Assembly (NCBI RefSeq): GCF_947179165.1
Contig: NC_077238.1
Span: forward strand, 77,033,757 to 77,097,756
DNA from: Solanum dulcamara
Lineage: Eukaryota > Streptophyta > Magnoliopsida > Solanales > Solanaceae
DNA length: 64,000 bases
Direction: 5' to 3'
Within the stretch, counting starts at the first letter, position 1; every line of letters begins with the position of its first letter. The position numbers and the translations under genes are program-made. Below the pieces are notes generated by a model, which was not told where the DNA came from, searched no databases, and saw only the letters and a program-made list of their open reading frames with translations. Of this stretch, positions 15,284 through 60,640 are shown one piece after another.

Positions 15284-16461
15284 CTATACAAATGATTCAA
15301 ACACAAACAAAGACTCAATATACTCAAAAGCACCAGCTGTACTAGGGAAATAGACTTGTTCATCTGCACCTTCATAATCACAGAATTTTTCAAAAGTCTT
15401 GTTTATAAGATTGTACCTCATGGCCTTATCATCATTAGGAATTGCTAGAACCAAAAATGCATCCTCTTCTCGTCTACCTCGAACCATAAATAATATCGTG
15501 AAATTATAATTATACAACTCGTCAGGATGTCCAAGATCAACCTTGTACTTAACAAACCATTCAGAATAGTCCCTATTCATCTCGTATACATCAAATCGGA
15601 ATGTGTAAGAAAAAAAATTATAAGGTGCAAATGGTCACAAGATTCACCAAAATATGTTATGGTTGTTCCTTGATAATCTGGCAAAGGTGGCATTGGCATT
15701 ACCCCTAAGCTCTCAAGATCAAGATTGTAACATAAAGAAGTAAAGTTTTCAACAGTGCTTATCCAGTGAATTGATCCACTCCAATAAACCCCATTGGAGA
15801 AATTATCAGCAATGTATGGATTACCTGAAAATATCCATGGACCTGTTTCAAGTTAATTTCACGTGTGATCATTAAACTTTATCCGCTATGACAATAAAAT
15901 AACAGAACTACTTTTTGTCATATTCGCTAAAACTTTATACATTATTATCTCTATTTCATACTAAGATGTATTTTTATATTTTCATTTTATTTCAAATAAG
16001 AGGTGTTTAACATAATTAAGAAGACATCGTTTTTTGTTCTTCTAGTTTTAGCCTTATTTAAATAAAGGGAGTTTTACGTAACCAAGAAACTACTAAAGAA
16101 CTACTTCTTCAAAACACTTAGTTAGTAACAATATGTCATACATTCTAGGAGCAAGTAATTTTTTTAGGGGTTTGCAACAAAAAGGTAGAGTTTATTTACT
16201 TTATTGTGACAAAATATATTTTTGTAACTTTTATAGTTTAGTGACCATTTATGAAATTCACAAACCTGTTTCAGATGAGTAAATTTCAATCTGATAATGC
16301 TGAGGAGACGACACGGAATGACGAACACAAACTACTTTGTAATGAGGAGACTTGGCAGGATCAAAAGCCAAGCTTTTACCATGAATATTGGAATTTTCAG
16401 TTTTTAGAAGTGATTTTGAAAGTGTTGTGTAATGTTTCGTAGTAGGGTTGCAAACATTGCT
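15284..16461 (-). pseudogene. 5'-truncated F-box gene interrupted by a MITE
   Basis: Codes the C-terminal, F-box-associated part of a plant F-box protein (the group with VCNPTTK...YTTL, SPHYKVV, QIEIYSSETG and HLHLI signatures), which would be the substrate-binding part of an SCF ubiquitin ligase. The N-terminal F-box is missing: the frame begins NVCNPTTK next to the end of the copia LTR at 16462, so the retrotransposon cut the gene. The coding sequence runs 16461 to 16266, is interrupted by 15843-16265, and continues in frame from 15842 (GPWIFSGN) to about 15610. There an A/T homopolymer (about 15609-15617) causes a one-base frameshift, after which it continues (FSYTFRFDVYEMNRDYSEW) to the stop at 15284. 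An unspliced read stops within the insert. The paralog at 36.5 kb has no interruption at the matching site. Confidence 0.8.
15851..16263. mobile_element. Mutator-like MITE that acts as a potential intron
   Basis: A 413-bp AT-rich insert flanked by a perfect 10-bp direct repeat ACCTGTTTCA (15841-15850 and 16264-16273). Its ends are imperfect inverted repeats: left AATTTCACGTGTGATCATTA, right in reverse complement AATTTCATAAATGGTCACTA, about 70% alike over 28 bases. TIR plus 8-11-bp TSD is typical of MULE MITEs. On the gene strand the TSD is TGAAACAGGT. Cutting each copy at AG|GT gives a GT...AG intron (15843-16265, 423 nt) whose removal deletes the MITE plus one TSD copy and restores SSETG-PWIFSG exactly. 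Confidence 0.75.
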
Positions 16462-16949
16462 TGGGGGAGGAAGCACCACAACTAAAGTTTGATATGATAA
16501 TAAATAATGAAAATAAATTATACATGAGAATTCTACGTGGAACCCTCGAACAGTTAGAAGGGAAAAACCACGAGGTAGAAGGATTTTACTATGATAATAT
16601 TGGAATACACTGCTCTCAAATATAAGGAGAAAACAACAATAAACACTTCTTTCTTATAAAAGGAACAACTACTAAAGAGGACACTCAAGACTACAATATT
16701 TATCTTGGTGTATAACTTTCTTTGTATTCTTACTCTCTCTTTTTCTGAATAAATTAAATGAGGGAACGGAGCCCTCTATTTATAGGAGGATGAAAACGTG
16801 TAAAAAAAATTATGCATTAATTTTCTACGCATTTTTTCTGTCAAAAATCTTTTTGTCAAAAGAGGCAACGCATAATTTCTGTCAACTTTTAAAAGTTGTT
16901 GCATATTTGTTTTTCTTTCTTTTTACTTTTTCCTTTTTGACTTCTTGCA
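16462..16949 (-). repeat. 3' LTR of copia A2 (488 bp)
   Basis: Reverse complement of the family LTR. In element orientation it starts TGCAAGAAGTC after a purine tract (AGTGAGAGAA) and ends CCTCCCCCA against the F-box coding sequence. A TATA-like TATAAATAGAGGG is conserved with the A1 LTR. Confidence 0.85.
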
Positions 16950-17022
16950 TTCTCTCACTTGAAGATTTAATTGAGAATCAATTAAGTATTCATATCATCC
17001 TTTCTACCCAATTACTGCAATA

Positions 17023-18069
17023 TTACGTTTCTGCTAGGCCAACAGAAGATCGACACCATATAAACTTGTTACTGTTGATCGGCTTCATAAATATATCTGC
17101 TAGGTTGTCATTAATGTGAATTTTTTGAATATCCACACTGCCTTCTTCTACCTTTTCACGAACAAAGTGATACTGAACTCATATGTGCTTTGTCCTTGAA
17201 TGAAATGTCAGATTCTTTGCAAGATGCAAAGCACTCTGACTGTCACAAAAAAGAGCAACCTTCTCTTGTTTGTGCCTGAGCTCCTCTAGTAACATCTGCA
17301 TCCAGAGTGCCTCTTTGCTAGCTTATGTAGTTGCAACATATTCTTCTTCCATTGTAGATGTAGCCACGATAGATTGTAGTTTTGAAACCCAGCTTACAGC
17401 TCCTCCAACAAGAGTAAACACATAACTTGTGGTGGACTTGCTTTTATCAAGATCACCTGCATAATCTGAATCAACATAACCTTTAACAGTAAATTCTGAT
17501 CCTCCATAACACATTGCAACATCTGAGGTACCCTTGATATATCTTAGGATACTCTTAACAGTATTCCAATGCTCTCTACCAGGATTAGCCATGTATCGAC
17601 TAACCACTCCCACTATTTGTGCAATGTCAGGTCTTGTACATACCATGACAAATATTAAACTTTCCACTGCTGATGCTTACGATACTCGAGACATCTCCAT
17701 CCTCTCTGCTTCATTGATAGGACTCATTCTTAAGGATAACTTGAAATTAATAGGAAGTGGGGTAGAAATTGACTTACAGTCTTACATCTTAAAGCGTCAC
17801 AAGATTTTCTTCAAGTAGTTCTTTTGAGAAAGCCAAATCTTCCTATTAATTTTGTCTTGGTGAATTTGCATTCCTAAAATCTTGTTTGCTGGTCCCAAGT
17901 ACTTCATTTCAAACTCCCTAGCCAACTGTGCCTTTAAATTTGTGAGACGATCTTTGTTGGGGCCTGCTACCAATATGTCATCAACATACAACAGGAAAAT
18001 AATAAAATCGCCATCACCAAATCTCTTGTAATAAACACAAAGATCTGAACTATGTCTGTTGTATCCAAG
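17023..18069 (-). pseudogene. Copia A2 pol remnant, C-terminal half
   Basis: Minus-strand frame covering the second half of RT (LYVDDILVAGPNKDRL near 17950-17995; CTRPDIAQ) and RNase H (GYVDSDYAGDLDKS, VATSTMEEEYVA) to the stop at 17023. It contains stops and small disruptions near 17320 and 17670-17800. It joins 21242 directly across the nested solo LTR: SLG on the far side continues with YNRHSSDLCVYYKRFG here. Confidence 0.85.
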
Positions 18070-21000
18070 TGTGACACCCCGAAAATTTTTCGCAAAGACT
18101 CGAACATTTCTTCACGTGTGGGTAGACTCGGACCGGAGGACTTTTAATTGTACACATGATTTAGGATTAATTCCTAAGTATTTTAAGTGTGTTAGATGTG
18201 TTTAGGGGTCATAAGGGATCTCTAACACCAAGTCGAGTCCAAAGAACTCCAATCGACTAAGTTTTCGGACGAATTAGTATAAGGGTCAACTTCAAACGAC
18301 CATATATCCTAGGATATAAAGAACTGGGTGGACCACGACCTACCAAATTAAAGGTCTTTGAGTCTTATTTCCAACTCCACCAAGATTGTAATTTTTGGAG
18401 TTCGAAGTCAAAAGTTATGGCCATTTTACTACGGACTAGTACTGCAGAAATATTCAGGCCTGGGCGAAATTCAGGCTTGGCGCTCCAGTGGCGCCCCACG
18501 CAACTATAACGCCAGAAAATAGCCTCAGTAGTTTGGGGCTTGGCGCGACGCGCCACTATTAGATGTGCAGGGTTTTAAGCCTATTTTGGCTTGGCGCTGC
18601 AGTGGCGCGACGCGCCACTATAGCGCCAGCAAGGTTTTTGCTCAATTTTTCAGATTTTTGAAGAGGGGCAACTTGGACTTTTTCCCTAATTATATATACC
18701 TATCCTTGGACGTTTTGAGACCATATTTTCAGTCCCTCTCTCTCTCTAAAAGCCCTAATATTTTCTCTCTTCTTCTTCTTCTTCTTCTTCCCCAAATCCA
18801 TCTCCAACAAAGGGTGCCTTCCAGAGCTTCAAGAATTTAAGCCTTCCATTGAAGACCTAACATCAAGTTCCTTCAAAGTCTTCAAACAAGGTTTGTAAGA
18901 CTAACCTAAAATATGGATTAAGTTCTTCCATATGCCCATAGATGTGTTGTATAGGAGTTGTGGAAGAGTTGAACCCTCTAAGAAGGTTTTCTCGAAAGTT
19001 TTCCTAAACTATAGAATGTTTTTAAGTACTATTAGTTGATTGATGTTTTTAATGACTTGAGTTACTAAATAGTTATCTTTTATATTATTGATTTCAAATG
19101 TACCTTTGTATATAGATTTATAGATGTTGACGATATTCTTGAGTTGAGTCTTGTTGAGAGTATGGATTCATGTTTCATTCACATGAACCCAAGATGAGAT
19201 TTCTTGTCATAAATGTCTTGAGGTTGAGGTGGATGTTTTTGTGTATATATGTATTGATTGGAATGAAAAGAATGAATTGGTTAGTTAAGAATGTCCATTT
19301 GCTTCTATAAAATGAACATAGGACTATAATAAGGATTTCAGAGTGGATGTTTGACAATGATGTGATGATAATGGTTGATGACGATGTGAATGATGATATT
19401 TGACGATGATGTGAATGAAGAGGTTATGTTGATGAGTATGTTGTGTGATGAAGTGGATTGGAGTCTAATATGATTTTGTGGTATATGATGTGCATAATTT
19501 GAGTTGATTGGAGTCTTAGGAATATTTTAAAAATAAATAATCTTTTGAGGAGGAGCCTTTAAATGAGTTGAGTATTTTTACATTAAAGTATCTATTTTGA
19601 GTTTGAGTTGAGGAGTTGAAATTACATTTTTATGTACATAATATTTTCGGCATTCATTGAGTTGAGATTGTATAAATTTTTTAAAGAGAAGAGTTTGATG
19701 ATTTGAGATGAGTCGATTTGAAAGAAGGTCCAATGAGACTTGTCATTATGAGTTAATTGAGTTAAAATGAGAACAGAGTTGATGAGGTGGCAATGTTCCA
19801 CATGAAACTAGCCGTGAGGGCTTGTTTGAGATGATTGGAGGAGTTTTATGAGCATGGAGTCATGGGAGGAGTATCGAGCACCGAGGCGGGTGAGAGTACA
19901 GTCCATACTCGAACCCCAAAAAACTACGCCGCCAACGTAGGTAGGGATGGAACCGTTAAAGTCGGATGCTTCCCATGGGATCAAACCGTTAAAGTCGGAT
20001 GTTTCCCATTTTTATTGTCTTGAAATGATAGGACTTGACTAATCGATGGTATCCATGATTAGGGAGGCGTTCATGCCCTGGCAAGGTATGGATGGACGTG
20101 GCAACGACGTCTGATTATTGTATTATCACTGGCTCATAAGTGATGGTTGTCGGATAAGAGAAACTCTCATTTAGGTCTTGATAGTGCTCTGAGTCAGTTG
20201 AGTTGAGTGAGTTGCTATATGCTTATGAGTTAGTCTTGTCTAAACTATTTCTTGTTAGACTTAGGACACTCGAGTGAGTTGTTACATATTTATTGAGTTG
20301 AGTCCTTTGAGTTGAATTGTAAAACGTTGCATAATTTAATTTGCATATTTACTGAGTTGAGTTCTTTGAGTAGATTGTATATGGTCGGATTAGAATAGAT
20401 GAATTGTGATTGGATTGAATAGAATGGTATGTGACTAGATTGGATTTGATTATTGAGTTGATTGTTGAGTTGAGTGTATATAATCGGATTGTATATGATT
20501 GAAAGGGATCGAATTGTAAATGATTTGGTTGAACTGTATTATACATAATTGGATTGGATTGTATGGTGTATGATTGGTCTCTTTCTAAACTATATCCTTA
20601 CTTTAGATTTACGACACTTTATTTGAGTCCCTCTTACCTTCTTGAGTTGAGATATTTGAACCAGCGTTACTCTTCCTTAAGGTATGTTTCATTCTGCCAT
20701 ATTACATACTCGTACATTCCACGTACTGATGTTCATTTGGACCTGCATCGTTTCATGATGCAGAGACAGTTTTAAGAGATCGTCAATAAGAGCATCATTG
20801 AGGATCTATTCGCACTCAGCGTATTGGTGAGTCCTCCCCTACTTTCGGAGGACATCGCTTATGAAATCTTGCGTCGAGTTAGACTTTTTATTTTGAGTTG
20901 AGGTAGCCATGAACATGTCATTGGCACCAATTAGATAGTAATGATAGAGGCTTCATAGACTAGATAGTGAAGGGTCGATTGAGTATTTCTTTCCTTAAAT

Positions 21001-21236
21001 TATTCTTGTCAAACTATTTTTAATGACAAATATTTTAGTTGAATTATTGGCCCATGGCCTTTATTCTTTGAGTTAGATTGATGTTTTGAGTTGTCCGCTA
21101 AATTATTCTTTATTTTAAAACTTTCCGCTGATTGAAATAACGGACGGATGTGTGATCAGGCTATGTGGTTCGCTTGGGAGCCAGAAATGGTTTCTGAGTG
21201 CCGATTACATCTAGGGTACCCTCCCGGGGCGTGATA
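18070..21236 (+). mobile_element. Solo LTR of a chromovirus-like element (3167 bp)
   Basis: Begins TGTGACACCCCG and ends CTCCCGGGGCGTGATA. Flanked by a perfect TSD ccaag (18065-18069 and 21237-21241). No internal region, primer site or gag-pol, so it is a solo LTR left by recombination. It is homologous to 31644-34856 (opposite orientation) and more distantly to the 2.44-kb LTRs of the chromovirus at 50.7 and 58.2 kb. It contains GC-rich palindromic TGGCGCGACGCGCCA units at about 18480-18630 and degenerate GATTGGATTG-type repeats at about 20350-20580. Short frames inside are not genes. Confidence 0.92.
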
Positions 21237-21241
21237 CCAAG

Positions 21242-22232
21242 GCTTATAATAAAGGAATCAAATCTCTTATACCAACACCTCGGTGCCTGTTTGAGACCAT
21301 ATAGAGATTTTTTCAACCTGCAAACCAAGTTCTCTTTTCCCTGTTCTTCAAAACCTTCTGGTTGGAGCATATAAATTTCTTCTTCAAGTTCTCCATGAAG
21401 AAATGCAGTTTTGACATCAAACTGCTCCAAGTACAAGTCAAATGTAGCACACATCGCCAGGACCACTCGAATTGTTGTGAGTTGAACCACCAGAGAAAAA
21501 ATCTCATTGAAGTCTATACCTTCTTTCTGAGCGAATCCTTTCACCACTAATCTTGCACGATACTTCTCTACTTGATCATTACCATTGTGTTTGATCTTGT
21601 AGACCCATTTATTTTCAATGGTCTTCTTTCCTTGTGGTAATTGAACAAGATCCCATGTTTTATTTTTATAAAGAGCTTCAATTTCTTCTTGCATTGCTGC
21701 CATCCACAGAGATGATTCTTGGCCTTTCATAGCCTCGTGAAAAGTTGAAGGCTCTCTATCCTCTGTTAATAGACAGTACAACATTGCCCTCCATAGAATA
21801 ATCTGAGTGCTAAGATGGTTCTCTTCTCTCCCTAGTTGACTGTCGAACTTATAGAGCTTCGATCTCAACTTGCTCTTATTCTTCGTGCTCTGGTGCTGCT
21901 TCAGAAGGAACTGGAACTTTTTTTATTTTTTCAACTTCAACTGTAGTAGTCTCTGATTTTTCTTTTGAAGTACTACCTTCTTTTACTTGTATTTTGTTTT
22001 CAACAAATACAACATCCCTACTGATTACCACCTTGCGAGCAATGGGATCCCACAAGCAATACACATTGACTCCATCAGCATACCTTAAGAAAATGCATTT
22101 CCTAGATTTTGGATCCAACTTCAATTTTTCTTGGGTGTTATACGTAACATAAGCAGGACTTCCGAATTTATATAAGCGAGAATAATCAACTGGTTTTCCT
22201 GTCCACATCTCTATTGGCGTTTTTAAGAAGAT
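21242..22232 (-). pseudogene. Copia A2 pol remnant: integrase end and RT start
   Basis: Minus-strand: PIEMWTGKPVDYSRLYKFGS (integrase C-terminal part) from about 22222, CLWDPIARKVVISRDVVF, then the acidic linker ending APEHEE with a stop at 21876, and after a one-base frameshift (about 21780) LLTEDREPSTFHEAMKG, RARLVVKGFAQKEGIDF and DVKTAFLHGELEEEIYMLQP of RT. It ends at the solo LTR and resumes at 18069. Confidence 0.85.
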
Positions 22233-22688
22233 TTTATTATGCAAAAACTTAGCCTCGTACAATCCCGTAAGAGTATCTCATATTTCCTTCCCCGGCTATT
22301 TTTCAGCAACACTAGACAACACTTGATCAGCTAGTGTCAAATGTAGATCAGCAACTACATTACTGTTTATGTCGTTCCACTTGCTGTCATCAGTAAAGTC
22401 TGCCTTCAATTGCAGCTTAGCAAATGTCTTTTCTAAATATCACTCTTATTTTTATTCTTCACGATGAGATATTGGTCCCATTGAATTTTTCAACGTCAAA
22501 CTTTGTTGTACTCGATATTGTTATTTGCTTCACACCCTTCTAGATTATTTCTGAATATTTTTGCGAACAATCGTGACAAACTGTACCATCATCGAAATTT
22601 ACTATTCACGTGAATAATACTTTTACTATTCACAAATAGTACATTCGCATAAAACAGACAGAATAACTGAGGGCTCTGATACCACTGT
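22222..22688 (-). pseudogene. Copia A2 leader and gag N-terminus, fused in frame to integrase
   Basis: From the primer site at about 22686 leftwards is an untranslated leader. A gag start follows near 22480, with stops at once, then KLQLKADFTDDSKWNDINSN and IWDTLTGLYEAKFLHNKIFL-like gag text. At about 22218-22232 gag (HNKIFLK) runs straight into integrase (TPIEMW). The rest of gag, the protease and most of integrase are missing, so a large internal deletion happened here. Confidence 0.7.
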
Positions 22689-23191
22689 TGGGGGAGGAAG
22701 CACCACAACTAAAGTTTGATATAAAAATAAATAATGAAAATAAATTGGACACGAGAATTTTAAGTGGAAACCCTCAAATAGATAGAAGGAAAAAACCACA
22801 AGGTAGAAGGATTTTACTATGATAATATGGGAGTACACTGCTCTCAAATATAAGGAGAAAATAACAATAAACATTTCTCTCTTATAAAAGAAACAACTAC
22901 TAAAGAGGACACTCAAGACTACAATATTTATCTTGGTATATAACTCTTTTTGTATTCTTACTCTCTCTTTTTCTGAATAAATTAAATGAGGGCACGAGAT
23001 CCTCTATTTATAGGAGGATGAAAACGCGTAAAAAAAATTACGCGTTAATTTTCTACGCATTTTTTCTGTTAAAGTTCTTTTTGTCAAAAGAGGCAACGCA
23101 TAATTTCTGTCAACTTTTAAAAGTTGCTTTTCAAAAGTTGCTACATATTTGTTTTTCTTTCTTTTTATTTTTTCCTTTTTGACTTCTTGCA
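22689..23191 (-). repeat. LTR shared by copia A2 (5') and A3 (3')
   Basis: 503-bp LTR of the A family. To its left lies the A2 primer site and gag; to its right lies another copy's purine tract (AAGTGGGAGAA) and RNase H end. One LTR therefore serves two head-to-tail element bodies. Confidence 0.85.
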
Positions 23192-23264
23192 TTCTCCCAC
23201 TTGAAGATTTAATTGAGAATCAATTAAGTCTCCATATCATCCTTTCTACCCAATTACTGCAATG

Positions 23265-23541
23265 TTACGTTTTTGCTAGGTCAACAGAAGATCGACACCA
23301 TATAAACTTGTTACTGTTGATCGACTTCATAAACATATTTGCTAGGTTGTCATTATTTTGAATTTTCTGAATATCCACACTGCCTTCTTCTACCTTCTCA
23401 CAAACAAAGTGATAATAAACTCGTATGTGCTTTGTCCTTGAATGAAATATTGGATTCTTTGCAAGATGCAAAGCGCTCTAACTGTCACAAAAAAGAGCAA
23501 CCTTCTCTTGTTTGTGCCCGAGCTTCTCCAGTAACATCTGA
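23265..23541 (-). pseudogene. Copia A3 RNase H remnant
   Basis: Minus-strand tail of a second A-family element (LAKNPIFHSRTKHIRVYYHF, then VDIQKIQNNDNLANMF), ending LAKT with a stop at 23265. It aligns with 17023-17310. At 23541 the similarity ends abruptly and plus-strand Tnt1-like gag (element C) begins, so the rest of A3 is lost. Confidence 0.8.
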
Positions 23542-36240: not shown

Positions 36241-36458
36241 GGCAATATACTGAGTTTGTGAACTAAATTTGTTTGAATTTATCTATAATTTGATCGATAC
36301 CTTGCGAAAAGTGATTTTTAGAGAAGAAAATTGGTTGAATTTAGCTATTTTGATGTTTTGAAAAAAAGTTCCTCTATATTGTTTTGTTGCAACTTGAAAA
36401 AGGAATGAACAAATGAATTGTGTTTTGTGCACATTAATGACTCTGCTGGAAATACAAT

Positions 36459-37561
36459 ATGGACTCTGCTGTAATCTTTATACAAACATTCAACATGTCT
36501 TATAGTGCTGAAAAAATTGAAGGTAGTGATGATCTTTTAACCAAGATTTTACTACTACTCCCTGCTAGACCTCTCTTCAGGTTCAAGCTTGTTTCCAAAC
36601 GGTGGATGTCTCTCGTCTCCGATCCCCGTTTTTCTTCTCTCTGGAAGCCTGAATCTTTCCCAACTGCATTCATTCTGCAGTCGCCTTTTCTCGATTACCC
36701 TTGTTATTACCTTCCTGATAAAACAAAATCTAAGGCTTCTATTATATTCTTTGATTTTATCAAAGATGTTGTAATTTTGAATTGCTGTGGTGGTTTACTT
36801 CTTTGTCGTAAAAGGCTCTATGATAAGTACATTGTGTGTAATCCAACTACAAAGGAATTCCATACTCTTCCGAGTCCAAATGTGGAGTCACTAAACATGA
36901 GTTTGGCTTTTGATCATTCAATATCGCCTCATTACAAAGTTATAAATGTTGGGTTCCATTTCCTGATTCATAAAGAAAGTCTTTGGCATTGTCTCCCTAT
37001 CGAAATATACTCTTCAGATACCAACTCCTGGAGGCGATCTCGAGCCCAGTTTCCAAAAACATTTTAAAGCTATTTAGGACATGGTAAGGGAGTTTTCTTC
37101 AATGGAGCTATCTTTTGGATCTTTAGAGGGATAAATAGCTTTTGTTATTTTGATATTGATAGGGAAATTATCCACTCTTATCAATTGCCTAAATGGCTGA
37201 ACAGTATTACTGTGGATGCATCCGTGGGAATTTACATCTTGTTGGCTCTTGATTCAGTGATTCGCATCATATTAACATATTTGTATTGGGAAATGACTAC
37301 TACTCTTGGAGCCTAAAGTATTGCATTGATCGACGTGAACCAACTTCATGTGCAATTCGAGAAATGATTTGTAGTTCGCCTGGACTTACTTCTCTTGAAT
37401 TTACGTTTGCTGTGCTTTCTCTTATGACAAGTGAAGGGAATAATCAGCTACCAGATTTGATTCCTTACATGCCTTGCAAAGTTGAGTTTACGGTAAAAGG
37501 TAGGACATATGAGAAGTTGCCACTACCGTCAGTTGATCAATTTTTTGACAATCCATTCTGA
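36459..37561 (+). pseudogene. F-box protein pseudogene
   Basis: Starts MDSAVIF or, more likely, at the internal Met at 36495 (MSYSAEKIEGSDD). The F-box is at about residues 24-62 of the longer frame (DLLTKILLLLPARPLFRFKL, VSKRWMSLVSDPRFSS). The F-box-associated part follows (YIVCNPTTKEFHTLP, SPHYKVINVGFHF, IEIYSSDTNSWRRS). A stop at 37065-37067 ends the frame, and similarity continues in the same frame (GHGKGVFFNGAIFWIF). A frameshift near 37220-37260 then leads to a last frame (NIFVLGNDYYSW...LPLPSVDQFFDNPF) ending at 37561. With all segments joined it would be about 365 residues, a normal length. It would have been a substrate receptor of an SCF E3 ligase. No intron at the position where the 16-kb paralog has its MITE. 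Confidence 0.8.
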
Positions 37562-46046: not shown

Positions 46047-46340
46047 TATAAGAATTATGCTTTTGAACTGCCAGTAATTTTATTTTATTGCTTAGTTTTT
46101 GAATAAATTCAAGTTAATAGTTGGTTAGCTAGTTTTTTCTATTTACTAGTAATTAGTTTATTAAGACATTTTGGAGAGATATTCTAGGCTAGTTTACCAT
46201 TATCTTTTTACTGTTTTTGTTCTTATAAATATAGAGTTCAAGAAAGTAAAATAAAATAATTATCTTTGGCCTCATTGCAGAATTTTTCTCTCAAAGTCTT
46301 TCTCTATTATTTTCTTAAGTTCTTTATTGAAAAAACAACA
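46047..46340 (+). repeat. 5' LTR of the Ale-like element
   Basis: 294 bp, aligned with 47740-48032 with roughly 20 differences by eye. Contains TTATAAATATAGAG (TATA region) near 46227. Confidence 0.8.
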
Positions 46341-46373
46341 ATTGATATCTAGAGTTTTTTTCTTGAGGGACCT

Positions 46374-47739: not shown

Positions 47740-48032
47740 TGTTAGACTTATGCTTTTAAACTGCAATAATTTTATTTTACTGCTTAGTTTTTGAATAAAT
47801 CCAAGTTAATAGTTGGTTAGCTAGTTTTTTCTATTTAATAATAATTAGTTTATTAAGATATTTTGCAAAGATATTCTAGGCTAGTTTGCCATTATCTTTT
47901 TACTGTTTTTGTTTTTATAAATGTAGAGTTCAAGAAAGTAAAATAAAATAATTCTCTTTGGCCTCATTGCAGTATTTTTCTCTCAAAGTCTTTGTCTGTT
48001 ATTTTCTTACGTTCTTTATTGAAAAACCAACA
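47740..48032 (+). repeat. 3' LTR of the Ale-like element
   Basis: 293 bp, starts TGTTAGACTTATGC right after the purine tract and ends ACCAACA. Followed almost directly by the SINE at 48041. Confidence 0.8.
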
Positions 48033-48040
48033 ATAACCAA

Positions 48041-50371: not shown

Positions 50372-50685
50372 TTTTCCCTCTTTTTGATGATGACAAACTA
50401 TGCAAGCCAACAAATGTTCCCCCTATCAACAATATCTTCCCTTGCGTTTGTTTCCCTCTATTCTACTTAGATTGGTCTAGCAGAAAAACACAGAAACTTC
50501 CCATCCTAAGTCAGTCACACACCTTCCCTCTTTTGGAATCATAAAAAAGGAACATAGTAAACCAAACTAGTACAGTCTACAAGCATGTAAATCCATGGCC
50601 ACTAGGGCAACACTGAACATGAGTAGGATCAGTAGAAAGACAAGAATCAGGCAGTAGAACAAACCATCAACAAGTTCATATTAAA
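50372..50685 (-). mobile_element. Sirevirus 3' internal segment
   Basis: Non-coding piece between the Sirevirus 3' LTR and the chromovirus insertion, ending with the TSD ttaaa at 50681-50685. It joins sequence at 60641 onward on the other side of the nested element. Confidence 0.65.
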
Positions 50686-53127
50686 TGTAACACCCCTCAA
50701 ATTTTCCCTAAGATTCGGGCCTTCTTTGTGCACGTGTGGGGCCCATTGTATTTATTTCGAAGTACGTGCTTGAGTTAAAATGAGTCCCTGAGGAGTTTAA
50801 GAGCGTTGGAAGTGATGTGGGTCATTGAGGACCCCTAGGACCGAGCTAAGTCCAAAAGATCCGTCGTGGCTAAGTTTAGGACGAGTTCACATAAGGGTCG
50901 ACTATCAATGACCCTATCGTTTGAACGACTTCAATCCGGGTGGCCCACGACCTATCAAATTAAAGGTCGTCGAGTCTTCTTTCCAACACCACCAAGAACG
51001 TAGATTTTAGAGTTCGAGGCCAAAAGATATGACGATCCGAAGACAAACTAGCACGACAGGGATTTCATTTTGTCCTGGGTTACCACTGCTGGGGAGATGG
51101 CCCTGGCGCCGTAAGGGAGCGACGCGCCACTATCGCACCAGGAACATGCCTCAGTAGTTTGGTCCCTGGTGCGACGCGCCACTAAAAGTGTGCAGGGTTT
51201 TTGGGGCCAAATTCCCAAAATTTGGAACAATAGGCTTGGCGCTGTAAGGGCGCGATGCGCCACTATCGCGCCAGGAACATGCCTCAGTAGTTTGGTCTCT
51301 GGCGCGGCGCGCCACTAAAAGTTGTGCAGGTTTTAGGCGAAATTGGCCTTGGCGCTGTAAGGGCGCGACGCGCCACTATCGTGCCAAGGGCGTTTTAGCC
51401 TATTTTCAGAACATTTTGAGGAGGGGCAATTTGGGAACTTACCCAATTATATATATGTAGCCCTTGGCCTTTTGGGAACTCATTTTGGCAGCCCTCACTC
51501 TCTCTCTAAAAAGCCCTAAGAGCTCCTCTCCCTTCTCTCTACTCTTCTTCTCCATTTCCAACAAAGGAGTCCAAGAAGCTTCAAGATTAGAGTCCTCCAT
51601 TAAAGACCCAACCTCAAGGTTTTCTTCAAGTCTTCACTAAGGTATGTAAGGCTAACCAAAACATGGGTTGAGTCCACCCATGTGCCCTATTCTTGTTATA
51701 AGGTTAGATATCCATGAAAATAGAGTTTCTTTGTATGGTACATGTTTGAATGAGTATTGTTCCCATTTCATTTAATTATTGATGTGTTAATGTTGTTGAG
51801 CTAAGAGGTTCCTAAAATGAGCCCTTATATGAGTATGAGATGATGAAGGAATGAGTTGATAAATATGTTTGTTGGTCTTATTAATTATGTAGATTTGATA
51901 GAGTATACTATCTTCTTAAGCATGTTGCCTATTATAAGAATGTTGATTTGAAGTCTTGAAGATGTGATGAGTCATAAAGATTTTTCTCAAATGGATGGAG
52001 GTAATGATTGATTTTATATCTAGATGATGTGTATATATGCATTTTAACACTTCCTTGAAGATATGATTGAGATTGAGCATTTGAGATTGAGACTTGATTG
52101 TGATAGAGTTGATGAGTTGACAAGGTTGTAATGAAACTTGTCGATGTGATTTGATTGAATTGATTGGATGGAGTTTTATGAGCATTGAGTCTTGGAAGGA
52201 GTATCGAGCACCGAATTGGGCAAGAGTATAGTCCATACTCGAACCCAATAACTGCGTCGCCATACGTAGGAGGGATAGAACCGTTAAAGTCGGATGCTTC
52301 CCCAAGAGATTTGTCCTGACATTATAGGACTTGGTTGGATTGGATCCATGATTTGATGACTCATTCATGCCCTGGCAAGGTATGAGCGGACGCGGCAACA
52401 ACGTCGGTTTGTTGTACTTTCACTGGCTCATAAGTGATGGTTGTCGGTTAAGAGAAACTCCCAAATAGGTGTTGATAGTACTCTGAGTCGGATTGAGTTG
52501 ATTGTGTATGATTGGTCCCGTCTAAATCATATCCTTGTTTAGACTTAGGACATTTGATTAAGTTGTCACCCTTTTGAGATTGAGATCCCGAGTTGATTGA
52601 TTATTTCTTGATGTTCGTTGTATTCGGCCATTTTACATACTCGTACATTCCATGTACTGATGCCATTTGGCCTGCATCGTTTCATGATGCAGAGACAGGT
52701 ACTAGAGATCATCAACCGGCGCTCCGTTGAAGATCCACTTACACTCCAGCCAGTCGGTGAGTCCTCCTAGTTCCCGGAGGATATTGGTCCTTCCTGTACA
52801 GTTTTTGATTGTCTTTTTTTTTTTGTTTTTGGATTGTCGGTAGCCATGGGCTTGTCATTGGCACCTTTTAGACTTGAATAGAGGCTTCATAGACTGAGAT
52901 GTGAGGAGGTCGAGCGGTCATCTTGAGGATTCCTATTTTGATTATCGTCTTGATTGTAAATGTTTGGCCTTCGACCCTTATGATATGAGAAGTATTTTCT
53001 TAAATTGAGTTTTCTGCTAATAGAATGTGCTTGAATGAATGAGTGATTCTACCAAGTGGTTCGCTCGGAGGTCAGAGATGGCCTTCGGGTGCCGGTTACG
53101 TCTAGGGTACCCTCCCGGGGCGTGATA
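50686..53127 (+). repeat. 5' LTR of the chromovirus (2442 bp)
   Basis: Ends TGATA instead of TGACA (a C-to-T change at the final CA). Has four or five GC-rich palindromic GCGCGACGCGCCACTA units at about 51105-51390, a plant-type TATA (ATTATATATATG) near 51445 and a pyrimidine-rich CTCTCTCTC segment at about 51498. Confidence 0.93.
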
Positions 53128-58186: not shown

Positions 58187-58199
58187 AAGGGGGAGATAA
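58187..58199 (+). promoter_or_regulatory. Polypurine tract of the chromovirus
   Basis: AAGGGGGAGATAA immediately before the 3' LTR, the primer for plus-strand DNA synthesis. Confidence 0.85.
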
Positions 58200-60640
58200 T
58201 GTAACACCCCTCAAATTTTCCCTAAGATTCGGGCCTTCTTTGTGCACGTGTGGGGCCCATCGTATTTATTTCGAAGTACGTGCTTGAGTTAAGATGAGTC
58301 CCTGAGGAGTTTAAGAGCGTTGGAAGTGATGTGGGGTCATTGAGGACCCCTAGGACCGAGCTAAGTCCAAAAGATCCGTCGTGGCTAAGTTTAGGACGAG
58401 TTCACATAAGGGTCGACTATCAATGACCCTATCGTTTGAACGACTTCAATCCGGGTGGCCCACGACCTATCAAATTAAAGGTCGTCGAGTCTTCTTTCCA
58501 ACGCCACCAAGAACATAGATTTTAGAGTTCGAGGCCAAAAGATATGACGATCCGAAGACAAACTAGCACGACAGGGATTTCATTTTGTCCTGGGTTACCA
58601 CTGCTGGGGAGATGGCCCTGGCGCCGTAAGGGAGCGACGCGCCACTATCGCGCCAGGAACATGCCTCAGTAGTTTGGTCCCTGGCGCGACGCGCCACTAA
58701 AAGTGTGCAGGGTTTTTGGGGCCAAATTCCCAGAATTTGGAACAATAGGCTTGGCGCTGTAAGGGAGCGATGCGCCACTATCACGCCAGGAACATGCCTC
58801 AATAGTTTGGTCCCTGGCGCGGCGCGCCACTAAAAGTTGTACAGGTTTTAGGCGAAATTAGCCTTGGCGCTGTAAGGGCGCGACGCGCCACTATCGCGCC
58901 AAGGGCGTTTTAGCCTATTTTCAAAACATTTTGAGGAGGGGCAATTTGGGAACTTACCCAATTATATATATGTAGCCCTTGGCCTTTTGGGAACTCATTT
59001 TGGCAGCCCTCACTCTCTTTCTAAAAAGCCCTAAGAGCTCCTCTCCCTTCTCTCTACTCTTCTTCTCCATTTCCAACAAAGGAGTCCAAGAAGCTTCAAG
59101 ATTAGAGTCCTCCATTAAAGACCCAACCTCAAGGTTTTCTTCAAGTCTTCACTAAGGTATGTAAGGCTAACCAAAACATGGGTTGAGTCCACCCATGTGC
59201 CCTATTCTTGTTATAAGGTTAGATATCCATGAAAATGGAGTTTCTTGGTATGGTACATGTTTGAATGAGTATTGTTCCCATTTCATTTAATTATTGATGT
59301 GTTAATGTTGTTGAGCTAAGAGGTTCCTAAAATGAGCCCTTATATGAGTATGAGATGATGAAGGAATGAGTTGATAAATATGTTTGTTGGTCTTATTAAT
59401 TATGTAGATTTGATAGAGTATACTATCTTCTTAAGCATGTTGCCTATTATAAGAATGTTGATTTGAAGTCTTGAAGATGTGATGAGTCATAAAGATTTTT
59501 CTCAAATGGATGGAGGTAATGATTGATTTTATATCTAGATGATGTGTATAGATGCATTTTAACACTTCCTTGAAGATATGATTGAGATTGAGCATTTGAG
59601 ATTGAGACTTGATTGTGATAGAGTTGATGAGTTGACAAGGTTGTAATGAAACTTGTCGATGTGATTTGATTGAATTGATTGGATGGAGTTTTATGAGCAT
59701 TGAGTCTTGGAAGGAGTATCGAGCACCGAATTGGGCAAGAGTATAGTCCATACTCGAACCCAATAACTGCGTCGCCATACGTAGGGGGGATGGAACCGTT
59801 AAAGTCGGATGCTTCCCCAAGAGATTTGTCCTGACATTATACGACTTGGTTGGATTGGATCCATGATTTGATGACTCATTCATGCCCTGGCAAGGTATGA
59901 GCGGACGCGGCAACAACGTCGGTTTGTTGTACTTTCACTGGCTCATAAGTGATGGTTGTCGGTTAAGAGAAACTCCCAAATAGGTGTTGATAGTACTCTG
60001 AGTCGGATTGAGTTGATTGTGTATGATTAGTCCCGTCTAAATCATATCCTTGTTTAGACTTAGGACATTTGATTAAGTTGTCACCCTTTTGAGATTGAGA
60101 TCCCGAGTTGATTGATTATTTCTTGATGTTCGTTGTATTCGGCCATTTTACATACTCGTACATTCCATGTACTGATGCCATTTGGCCTGCATCATTTCAT
60201 GATGCAGAGATAGGTACTAGAGATCATCAACCGGCGCTCCATTGAAGATCCACTTACACTCCAGCCAGTCGGTGAGTCCTCCTAGTTCCCGGAGGATATT
60301 GGTCCTTCCTGTACAGTTTTTGATTGTCCTTTTTTTTGTTTTTGGATTGTCGGTAGCCATGGGCTTGTCATTGGCACCTTTTAGACTTGAATAGAGGCTT
60401 CATAGACTGAGATGTGAGGAGGTCGAGCGGTCATCTTGAGGATTCCTATTTTGATTATCGTCTTGATTGTAAATGTTTGGCCTTCGGCCCTTATGATATA
60501 AGAAGTATTTTCTTAAATTGAGTTTTCTGCTAATAGAATGTGCTTGAATGAATGAGTGATTCTACTAAGTGGTTCGCTCGGAGGTCAGAGATGGCCTTCG
60601 GGTGCCGGTTACGTCTAGGGTACCCTCCCGGGGCGTGACA
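58200..60640 (+). repeat. 3' LTR of the chromovirus (2441 bp)
   Basis: Near-identical partner of 50686-53127, with intact TG...CA termini. Short minus-strand frames found identically in both LTRs (for example 59431-59916) are non-coding LTR sequence. Confidence 0.93.

Follow-up and report, generated by a model that had tools for sequence, protein, structure and literature searches.

Can a transposon that lands in a coding exon supply its own splice sites and so become an intron? This is the question raised by an interrupted F-box gene in a stretch of 64,000 nucleotides of Solanum dulcamara DNA (the 64-kb window). The preliminary description proposed that one 413-bp MITE with imperfect terminal inverted repeats (TIRs) was flanked by a 10-bp target-site duplication (TSD), and that splicing at the AG|GT in each TSD copy would remove the MITE plus one TSD copy. 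The features concerned are as follows.

15284..15852, minus strand: F-box fragment downstream of the insertion (ETGPW...), in two frames
15841..15850, minus strand: downstream TSD copy; candidate acceptor AG 15844-15843, exon resuming at 15842
15843..16265, minus strand: candidate intron of 423 nt, the insert plus one TSD copy, splicing being predicted
15851..15948, minus strand: outer element, gene-3' part with TIR (reverse complement AGTTAATTTCACGTGTGATCATTAAACTTTA)
15949..16183, minus strand: nested decayed Stowaway MITE, matching the consensus of 26 genome copies
16184..16263, minus strand: outer inverted-repeat element, gene-5' part with TIR TTGTGAATTTCATAAATGGTCACTAAACTATA, inner limit approximate
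16264..16273, minus strand: upstream TSD copy; exon end 16266, candidate donor GT 16265-16264
16264..16455, minus strand: F-box fragment upstream of the insertion (VCNPTTK...YSSETG)
16461..17298, minus strand: copia-type element 3' end (RNase H region and LTR) adjoining the F-box fragment
36441..37561, plus strand: distant F-box paralog, uninterrupted at the site, with one stop and one frameshift

Anatomy of the insert and state of its host

The host is a fragment of an F-box At5g07610-like gene on the minus strand of the window, and fragment and insert together are referred to here as W. The direct repeat reads ACCTGTTTCA on the plus strand and TGAAACAGGT on the gene strand. Both copies of the duplication were located with their AG|GT, 413 bp apart at 15841-15850 and 16264-16273, and these are the only two occurrences of the 10-mer in the window. 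Equal 10-mers at a spacing of 423 were found at one of 63567 window positions. The direct repeat at W is weak evidence by itself, because the window holds 560 pairs of equal 10-mers 100-800 bp apart. A 9-bp duplication, GAAACAGGT, fits W as well as 10 bp once the TIRs are aligned. The TIRs at the insert ends are imperfect, with a local score of 32 that was matched by 4 of 3000 random 413-bp windows. Joining at AG|GT in silico gives SSETG|PWIFSG in a single reading frame, as had been claimed, with GPWIFSG... running on the minus strand from 15849 on after the 413-bp gap. The homologous proteins run through the site, those of potato, Anisodus, Nicotiana and Sesamum having no gap there and that of Coffea one extra residue. 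The perfect join alone is nevertheless no evidence, because any AGGT-bearing TSD restores the frame automatically, and the donor CAG|GTTTGT is by eye not a strong one.

The 413-bp spacing and the TIRs withstood analysis, but the single MITE had to be given up in favour of two nested elements, the repeated core of the insert being a Stowaway. A genome search with the whole insert, in which 40 of 69 candidates were scored, gave at least 40 matches, all of which, except W and a second F-box copy termed L024, fell within insert positions 87-331. Twenty-seven copies of this core, W and 26 others out of 30 loci, were aligned, L029 (the L024 copy) and L035 and L041 (common flanks) having been dropped, and a 283-bp consensus was built from the 26 other copies with W left out. 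The consensus ends in TA plus CTCCCTCC(G/A)TTTCAAAATAAGTGGTG and its TIRs are alike at 36 of 38 bases; from the TA target and the CTCCCTCC-type TIRs of the family consensus we take the nested element to be a Stowaway MITE (Tc1/mariner type). In W its own first ~29 bp are not recognisable. Since the consensus covers insert positions ~81-315, what is left is an outer element of ~160 bp split by the decayed Stowaway. The outer element differs from Stowaway MITEs in its other TIRs and its 9-10 bp duplication, and its family has the marks of a MITE, being short, with TIRs, a TSD and multiple independent copies. TSDs of 9-11 bp are the rule in the Mutator superfamily. The duplication measures 9-10 bp at W, exactly 9 bp in a copy in another gene (L061) and exactly 8 bp in a third (L083), and judged by TSD length the outer element appears Mutator-like. 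No unusually stable DNA fold was found for the insert (z = -0.41).

The W fragment is 80% identical to the potato protein P0001, of which residues 1-141 have no counterpart in W, and it begins where the 3' LTR of the copia-type element ends, at about 16461. The missing N-terminal part was absent from the window (the 36.5-kb paralog aside) and from the 30 kb read beyond its ends. The downstream fragment has a frameshift near 15607-15622, one residue has gone from ADVNF and the C-terminus is changed, with loss of the usual SLCCV. Pfam gave no match on the separate F-box pieces, and the joined piece gave a match that stayed below the curated cut-off. To judge from its sequence the host gene is dead, with ~141 codons gone at the copia LTR and its frame shifted. 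A present-day function was considered and is contradicted by the truncation, the frameshift and the neutral drift described below. The 36.5-kb paralog proved to be uninterrupted at the site, as the preliminary description had it, and is itself broken by the stop and the frameshift.

Several other repeats were noted in the window. The copia-type element at 16461-23540 has an apparent tandem arrangement through a common LTR, in the order RNase H end, LTR and then GTGGTATCAGAGCC, which resembles a primer-binding site. At 50684-53125 and 58198-60638 are 2.4-kb direct copies that are 98.6% identical, 7.5 kb apart and similar to other window repeats. A stretch of 813 bp at 27525-28337 matches its own reverse complement at 72% as a fold-back, and 290-bp direct repeats at 46051-46342 and 47744-48034 (93% identical, starts 1.7 kb apart) are perhaps the LTRs of a small element.

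The second copy and selection around the gene duplication

L024 is a second F-box pseudogene, 0.7 Mb from W on the same contig. Before its exon, ..AATAG|GTCCTTGG, stand the same outer-element end and the same Stowaway (85%), and a second junction farther upstream (LA), TGAAATTTACTCAATTGAAAGAG|GTTAGTTAATTTC, consists of exon end and element start. The AG|GT is kept at both L024 junctions, other TSD bases being altered. When the genome was searched with the W sequence that spans exon end and element start, only W and L024 scored, and since both have the insertion at the same site it is older than the gene duplication. A third F-box pseudogene piece, L025, stops short of the insertion site. Directly after the end of the L024 pseudogene, from L024:7543 onward, is a related TIR, TTTAATTTCACATATGATAG, and a second family member may thus lie in the 3' end of that pseudogene.

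Comparison of the downstream exons of W and L024 gave a dN/dS of 0.81 over 156 codons for the time after their split. Simulated neutral evolution with an equal number of changes gave a mean of 0.77, with a probability of 0.64 of a value no higher than that observed. Differences at the three codon positions number 26, 19 and 19, private changes in the exon are 18 in W and 18 in L024, and L024 has two in-frame stops. A constraint of 0.5 on both branches would be rejected (P = 0.003), whereas constraint on one branch was compatible with the data at 0.5 (P = 0.11) and marginal at 0.3 (P = 0.04). Five Solanaceae proteins are invariant at 91 columns, of which W departs at 8 and L024 at 12; in a leave-one-out comparison the five proteins themselves depart at 2, 15, 5, 4 and 4. 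The downstream exon was neutral after the W/L024 split and no selection is visible.

A different picture emerges for the stem before the split. In the stretch of Stowaway kept in both W and L024, 13 of 105 sites have a shared change from the family consensus, the other changes being four in W only, seven in L024 only and three sites that differ in both. Four of the 13 shared changes are absent from all, or all but one, of 28 other copies. Part of the 13 may stem from subfamily ancestry, because L056, L030 and L057 have 6, 5 and 5 of them respectively; LA, a short piece, has one of the 8 that it covers. The stem K estimated from the Stowaway, on the basis of about 100 bases, is about 0.04-0.12, with a lower limit of 0.010 if only the strictest 4 changes are used. 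In the exon stem, by contrast, only one amino-acid change in 157 columns is not found in any of five Solanaceae proteins. At seven columns W and L024 have in common a residue that differs from potato, but at six of these it also occurs in another Solanaceae protein. The two copies share one single-codon gap and no stops or frameshifts. Neutral simulation of the exon stem gave on average 17 changes at K = 0.05. The probability of at most one change fell from 0.13 at K = 0.01 to 0.008 at K = 0.02, and from K = 0.03 it was below 0.001. At K = 0.010 neutrality of the exon stem is thus compatible with the data (P = 0.13). The exon was probably under selection before the split, the loopholes being Stowaway changes that are ancestral, the short LA and the estimate from ~100 bases. 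From the contrast of 13/105 in the Stowaway with 1/157 in the exon the gene therefore seems to have coded with the insertion inside, and a gene that coded with these elements inside would have had them removed from its RNA, with the same loopholes.

Other members of the outer-element family

A search with the outer element minus its nested part found at least three places, W, L024 and one on C7. The last (L061, about C7:67511687-67512036) is in a TBL19-like (trichome-birefringence-like, PC-Esterase) gene, whose frame is broken by 350 bp with the junctions GGCTGCAG|GTATGATTAATTTCACGTG...GTGAAATTAACGCGTTGTTGCAG|GTATTGTGG. Besides the element, the 350 bp contain the 9-bp duplication TGCAGGTAT and some additional bases. 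Unspliced, the frame meets a stop after GCRYD; joined, it continues through what remains of the domain and ends at a stop after KQYS, where the tomato protein ends too. The joined query aligns over its full length with tomato TBL19 at 94% identity, and none of the 16 other genome matches is interrupted at the site.

Searching with the L061 copy gave 22 matches, which besides L061, W and L024 represent 18 places, all of them read. In the partial stretches that align, similarity is 69-93%. Exonic copies number at least two among the 18. One, L083, is in an NB-ARC gene (C4:22561608-22562505, minus strand; element about C4:22562100-22562228), where the junctions ATTACAG|GTTGGGTTAATTTG...GATCAACCCTTACAG|GTATGGGTGGC bound a 129-bp candidate intron of element only in the P-loop region. 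The joined frame, EREVIAITGMGGIGKTTLAKKAYD, is open over 256 of the 256 codons read and scores as one NB-ARC domain. Among 150 of 151 genome matches listed, the 148 besides its own two halves all cross the site, one of them beginning only two residues before it. The other, L087, is in an AMP-binding gene with an in-frame join at CAG|GTACA; its donor copy reads AGGG, and a later stop makes this host too, on its sequence, a pseudogene. The four exonic hosts are therefore two pseudogenes (F-box and AMP-binding) and two genes with open frames (TBL and NB-ARC). AGGT in the TSD, with an ancestral frame restored by removal, was found at W, L061 and L083. No TSD was recovered in most of the 18 copies. 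Several look like insertions in ordinary introns, with exons nearby that, from their peptides, we take to be UBC-, X8-, ABC- and H+-ATPase-like.

Two further places were noted. At C10:7432290-7432838 (L118 and L150) an element end stands directly before an exon, presumably UDP-glycosyltransferase-like (UGT), at CGTGCAG|GTATTG; the acceptor side is exonic, the 400 bp read yielded no upstream exon, and this candidate was left out of the count. At C1:6474611-6474769 (L098) an element follows a coding sequence, presumably lipase-like, that ends CCATCCAG|GTAA.

A suggested search for copies at AGGT thus yielded three more exonic cases at AG|GT (TBL, NB-ARC and the AMP-binding pseudogene) but no preference of the family for that target. 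When up to 3 mismatches are allowed, the TIR pattern has 91 occurrences in the genome compared with 0 for a reversed control. Of these 60 flanks were read, eight rows being copies already read and three near-identical rows being dropped. AGGT or ACCT occurs in the 13 bases before the TIR in 5 of the 60 flanks, where 5.1 are expected (AGGT 3 and ACCT 2, neighbouring windows predicting 2.6 and 2.5). Some of the 60 are not independent of one another: the flanks of L107 and L110 are nearly the same, and the pairs L101/L127 and L133/L134 each seem to represent a single element seen from both ends; L101/L127, on C2, has by eye an exact 9-bp duplication, TGAGTTCAA, without AGGT. Targeting of AGGT by the family was accordingly rejected, and the four exonic AG|GT cases are therefore not due to targeting. 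In the coding sequences of the four hosts 144 of 3050 9-mers, about 4.7%, contain AGGT, so one such case is unremarkable. Four of four would arise by chance with a probability of about 5e-6, a figure for cases that were noticed rather than sampled and of which two are in pseudogenes. Exonic insertions without AG|GT would be lost by selection, which is the filter to be expected from splicing.

Rival histories and known systems

The anatomy shows an inverted-repeat element that inserted in an F-box exon at an AG|GT site with a 9-10 bp target duplication, and a Stowaway MITE that then inserted into it. The duplicated AG|GT pairs would have acted as donor and acceptor, the element being spliced out with one TSD copy, and the ancestral F-box gene would have kept coding thanks to this splicing. 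The gene was duplicated afterwards, both copies found having lost function and decayed, with that in the window also truncated at the copia element. Splicing at W today, if any, would have no evident coding consequence. Equivalent introns would have arisen independently in the TBL and NB-ARC genes, where the anatomy is visible and removal is predicted. The whole sequence of events, AG|GT insertion, candidate splicing, nested Stowaway, duplication, decay and independent TBL and NB-ARC gains, is the best explanation and is held to be moderately probable. For the proposal that W gained its intron by the AGGT mechanism, the result is thus mixed: the family copies and the stem contrast speak for it, the dead gene, the neutral drift and the lack of AGGT targeting against.

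These last points are what would be expected had the element hit a dispensable gene, or killed it, with the AG|GT a coincidence and no splicing ever. The F-box host is a pseudogene, its exon was neutral after the split, the family has no AGGT preference, and with AGGT in 144 of 3050 coding 9-mers a single case calls for no explanation. It is harder to reconcile with one amino-acid change in the exon stem while the nested Stowaway has several shared changes, or with the further three AG|GT copies in exons, two of them in open-frame genes, and coincidence is regarded as a doubtful but serious contender. An ordinary old intron that was later filled by a MITE is improbable. Protein comparison is blind to introns and potato could have one here, but the duplication adjoins the element ends with nothing left over, and five other relatives in the genome, at C9:13126884, C6:73092094, C6:73086419, C7:5423421 and C2:82054036, span the site open and stop-free, as does the 36.5-kb paralog in spite of its lesions elsewhere. 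The idea that no transposon is present and that AT-rich sequence is flanked by a direct repeat through chance has in its favour the abundance of 10-mer pairs (560) in the window; the TIR pattern (91 against 0) and independent family copies bounded by direct repeats make it extremely improbable.

If the preferred history of insertion and splicing is extended to the family, a DNA-transposon family of S. dulcamara would repeatedly have made spliceosomal introns at AG|GT, in hosts that include the F-box gene (later lost), TBL, NB-ARC and perhaps the UGT and lipase-like genes, and such an intron could accept a second MITE while its gene was functional. No target preference is needed for this, because selection would keep only the spliceable exonic insertions. 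This wider reading is offered tentatively, at somewhat less than even confidence.

The mechanism of intron gain is already published, and the multi-gene setting of one plant family is the interesting part. In the model given in a 2012 review a transposon enters AGGT, the duplicated AGGT serves as donor and acceptor, and the coding sequence is unchanged after removal (PMC3443670). The same review tabulates 35 transposon-made introns from Oryza, Drosophila, Oikopleura and Zea (PMC3443670). The present case is like this model in that the duplicated AGGT could give both splice sites. It differs in that a single MITE family has entered several genes of the same species that are unrelated to one another, and in that one of the candidate introns contains a further, nested element (PMC3443670). 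Introners, according to the portions consulted of a 2022 study, are non-autonomous DNA elements, many with TSDs and TIRs, that occur in many eukaryotes as families of similar introns in many genes, some families taking both splice sites from the target site; among animals and land plants it places them in two groups only, both animals (PMC9860276). In contrast to introners so described, the matches to the outer element are only 69-93% alike, partial and few in exons, and have no AGGT preference (PMC9860276). Highly similar introns in many genes were not found, four copies being demonstrably exonic, nor was a bias of insertion to splice-competent sites (5/60 flanks vs 5.1 expected), and the term introner-like was too strong for a diverged family with few exonic copies. 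Alternative splicing is discussed in a review of plant MITEs from 2025, and the part consulted makes no mention of MITE-made introns (PMC12595863). A literature search made largely outside subscription papers found, among the titles listed, no reports of this outer-element family and none of several plant intron gains from one family.

Recent intron gains with the source still legible are rare. Some plant introns may be traceable to this mobile-element family, and if the TBL and NB-ARC introns are true a single plant MITE family would have given several independent base-exact gains, including one in the P-loop stretch of a gene of disease-resistance type. To these the F-box gene would add the life cycle of an intron, through gain, second insertion, duplication and loss. 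In maize, work by Giroux in 1994 reportedly described an intron made by a Ds element, and Menssen in 1990 is said to have found splice sites in the termini of En/Spm. The S. dulcamara elements would resemble both as plant DNA transposons behaving as new introns, but, unlike En/Spm, both candidate splice sites here come from the duplication.
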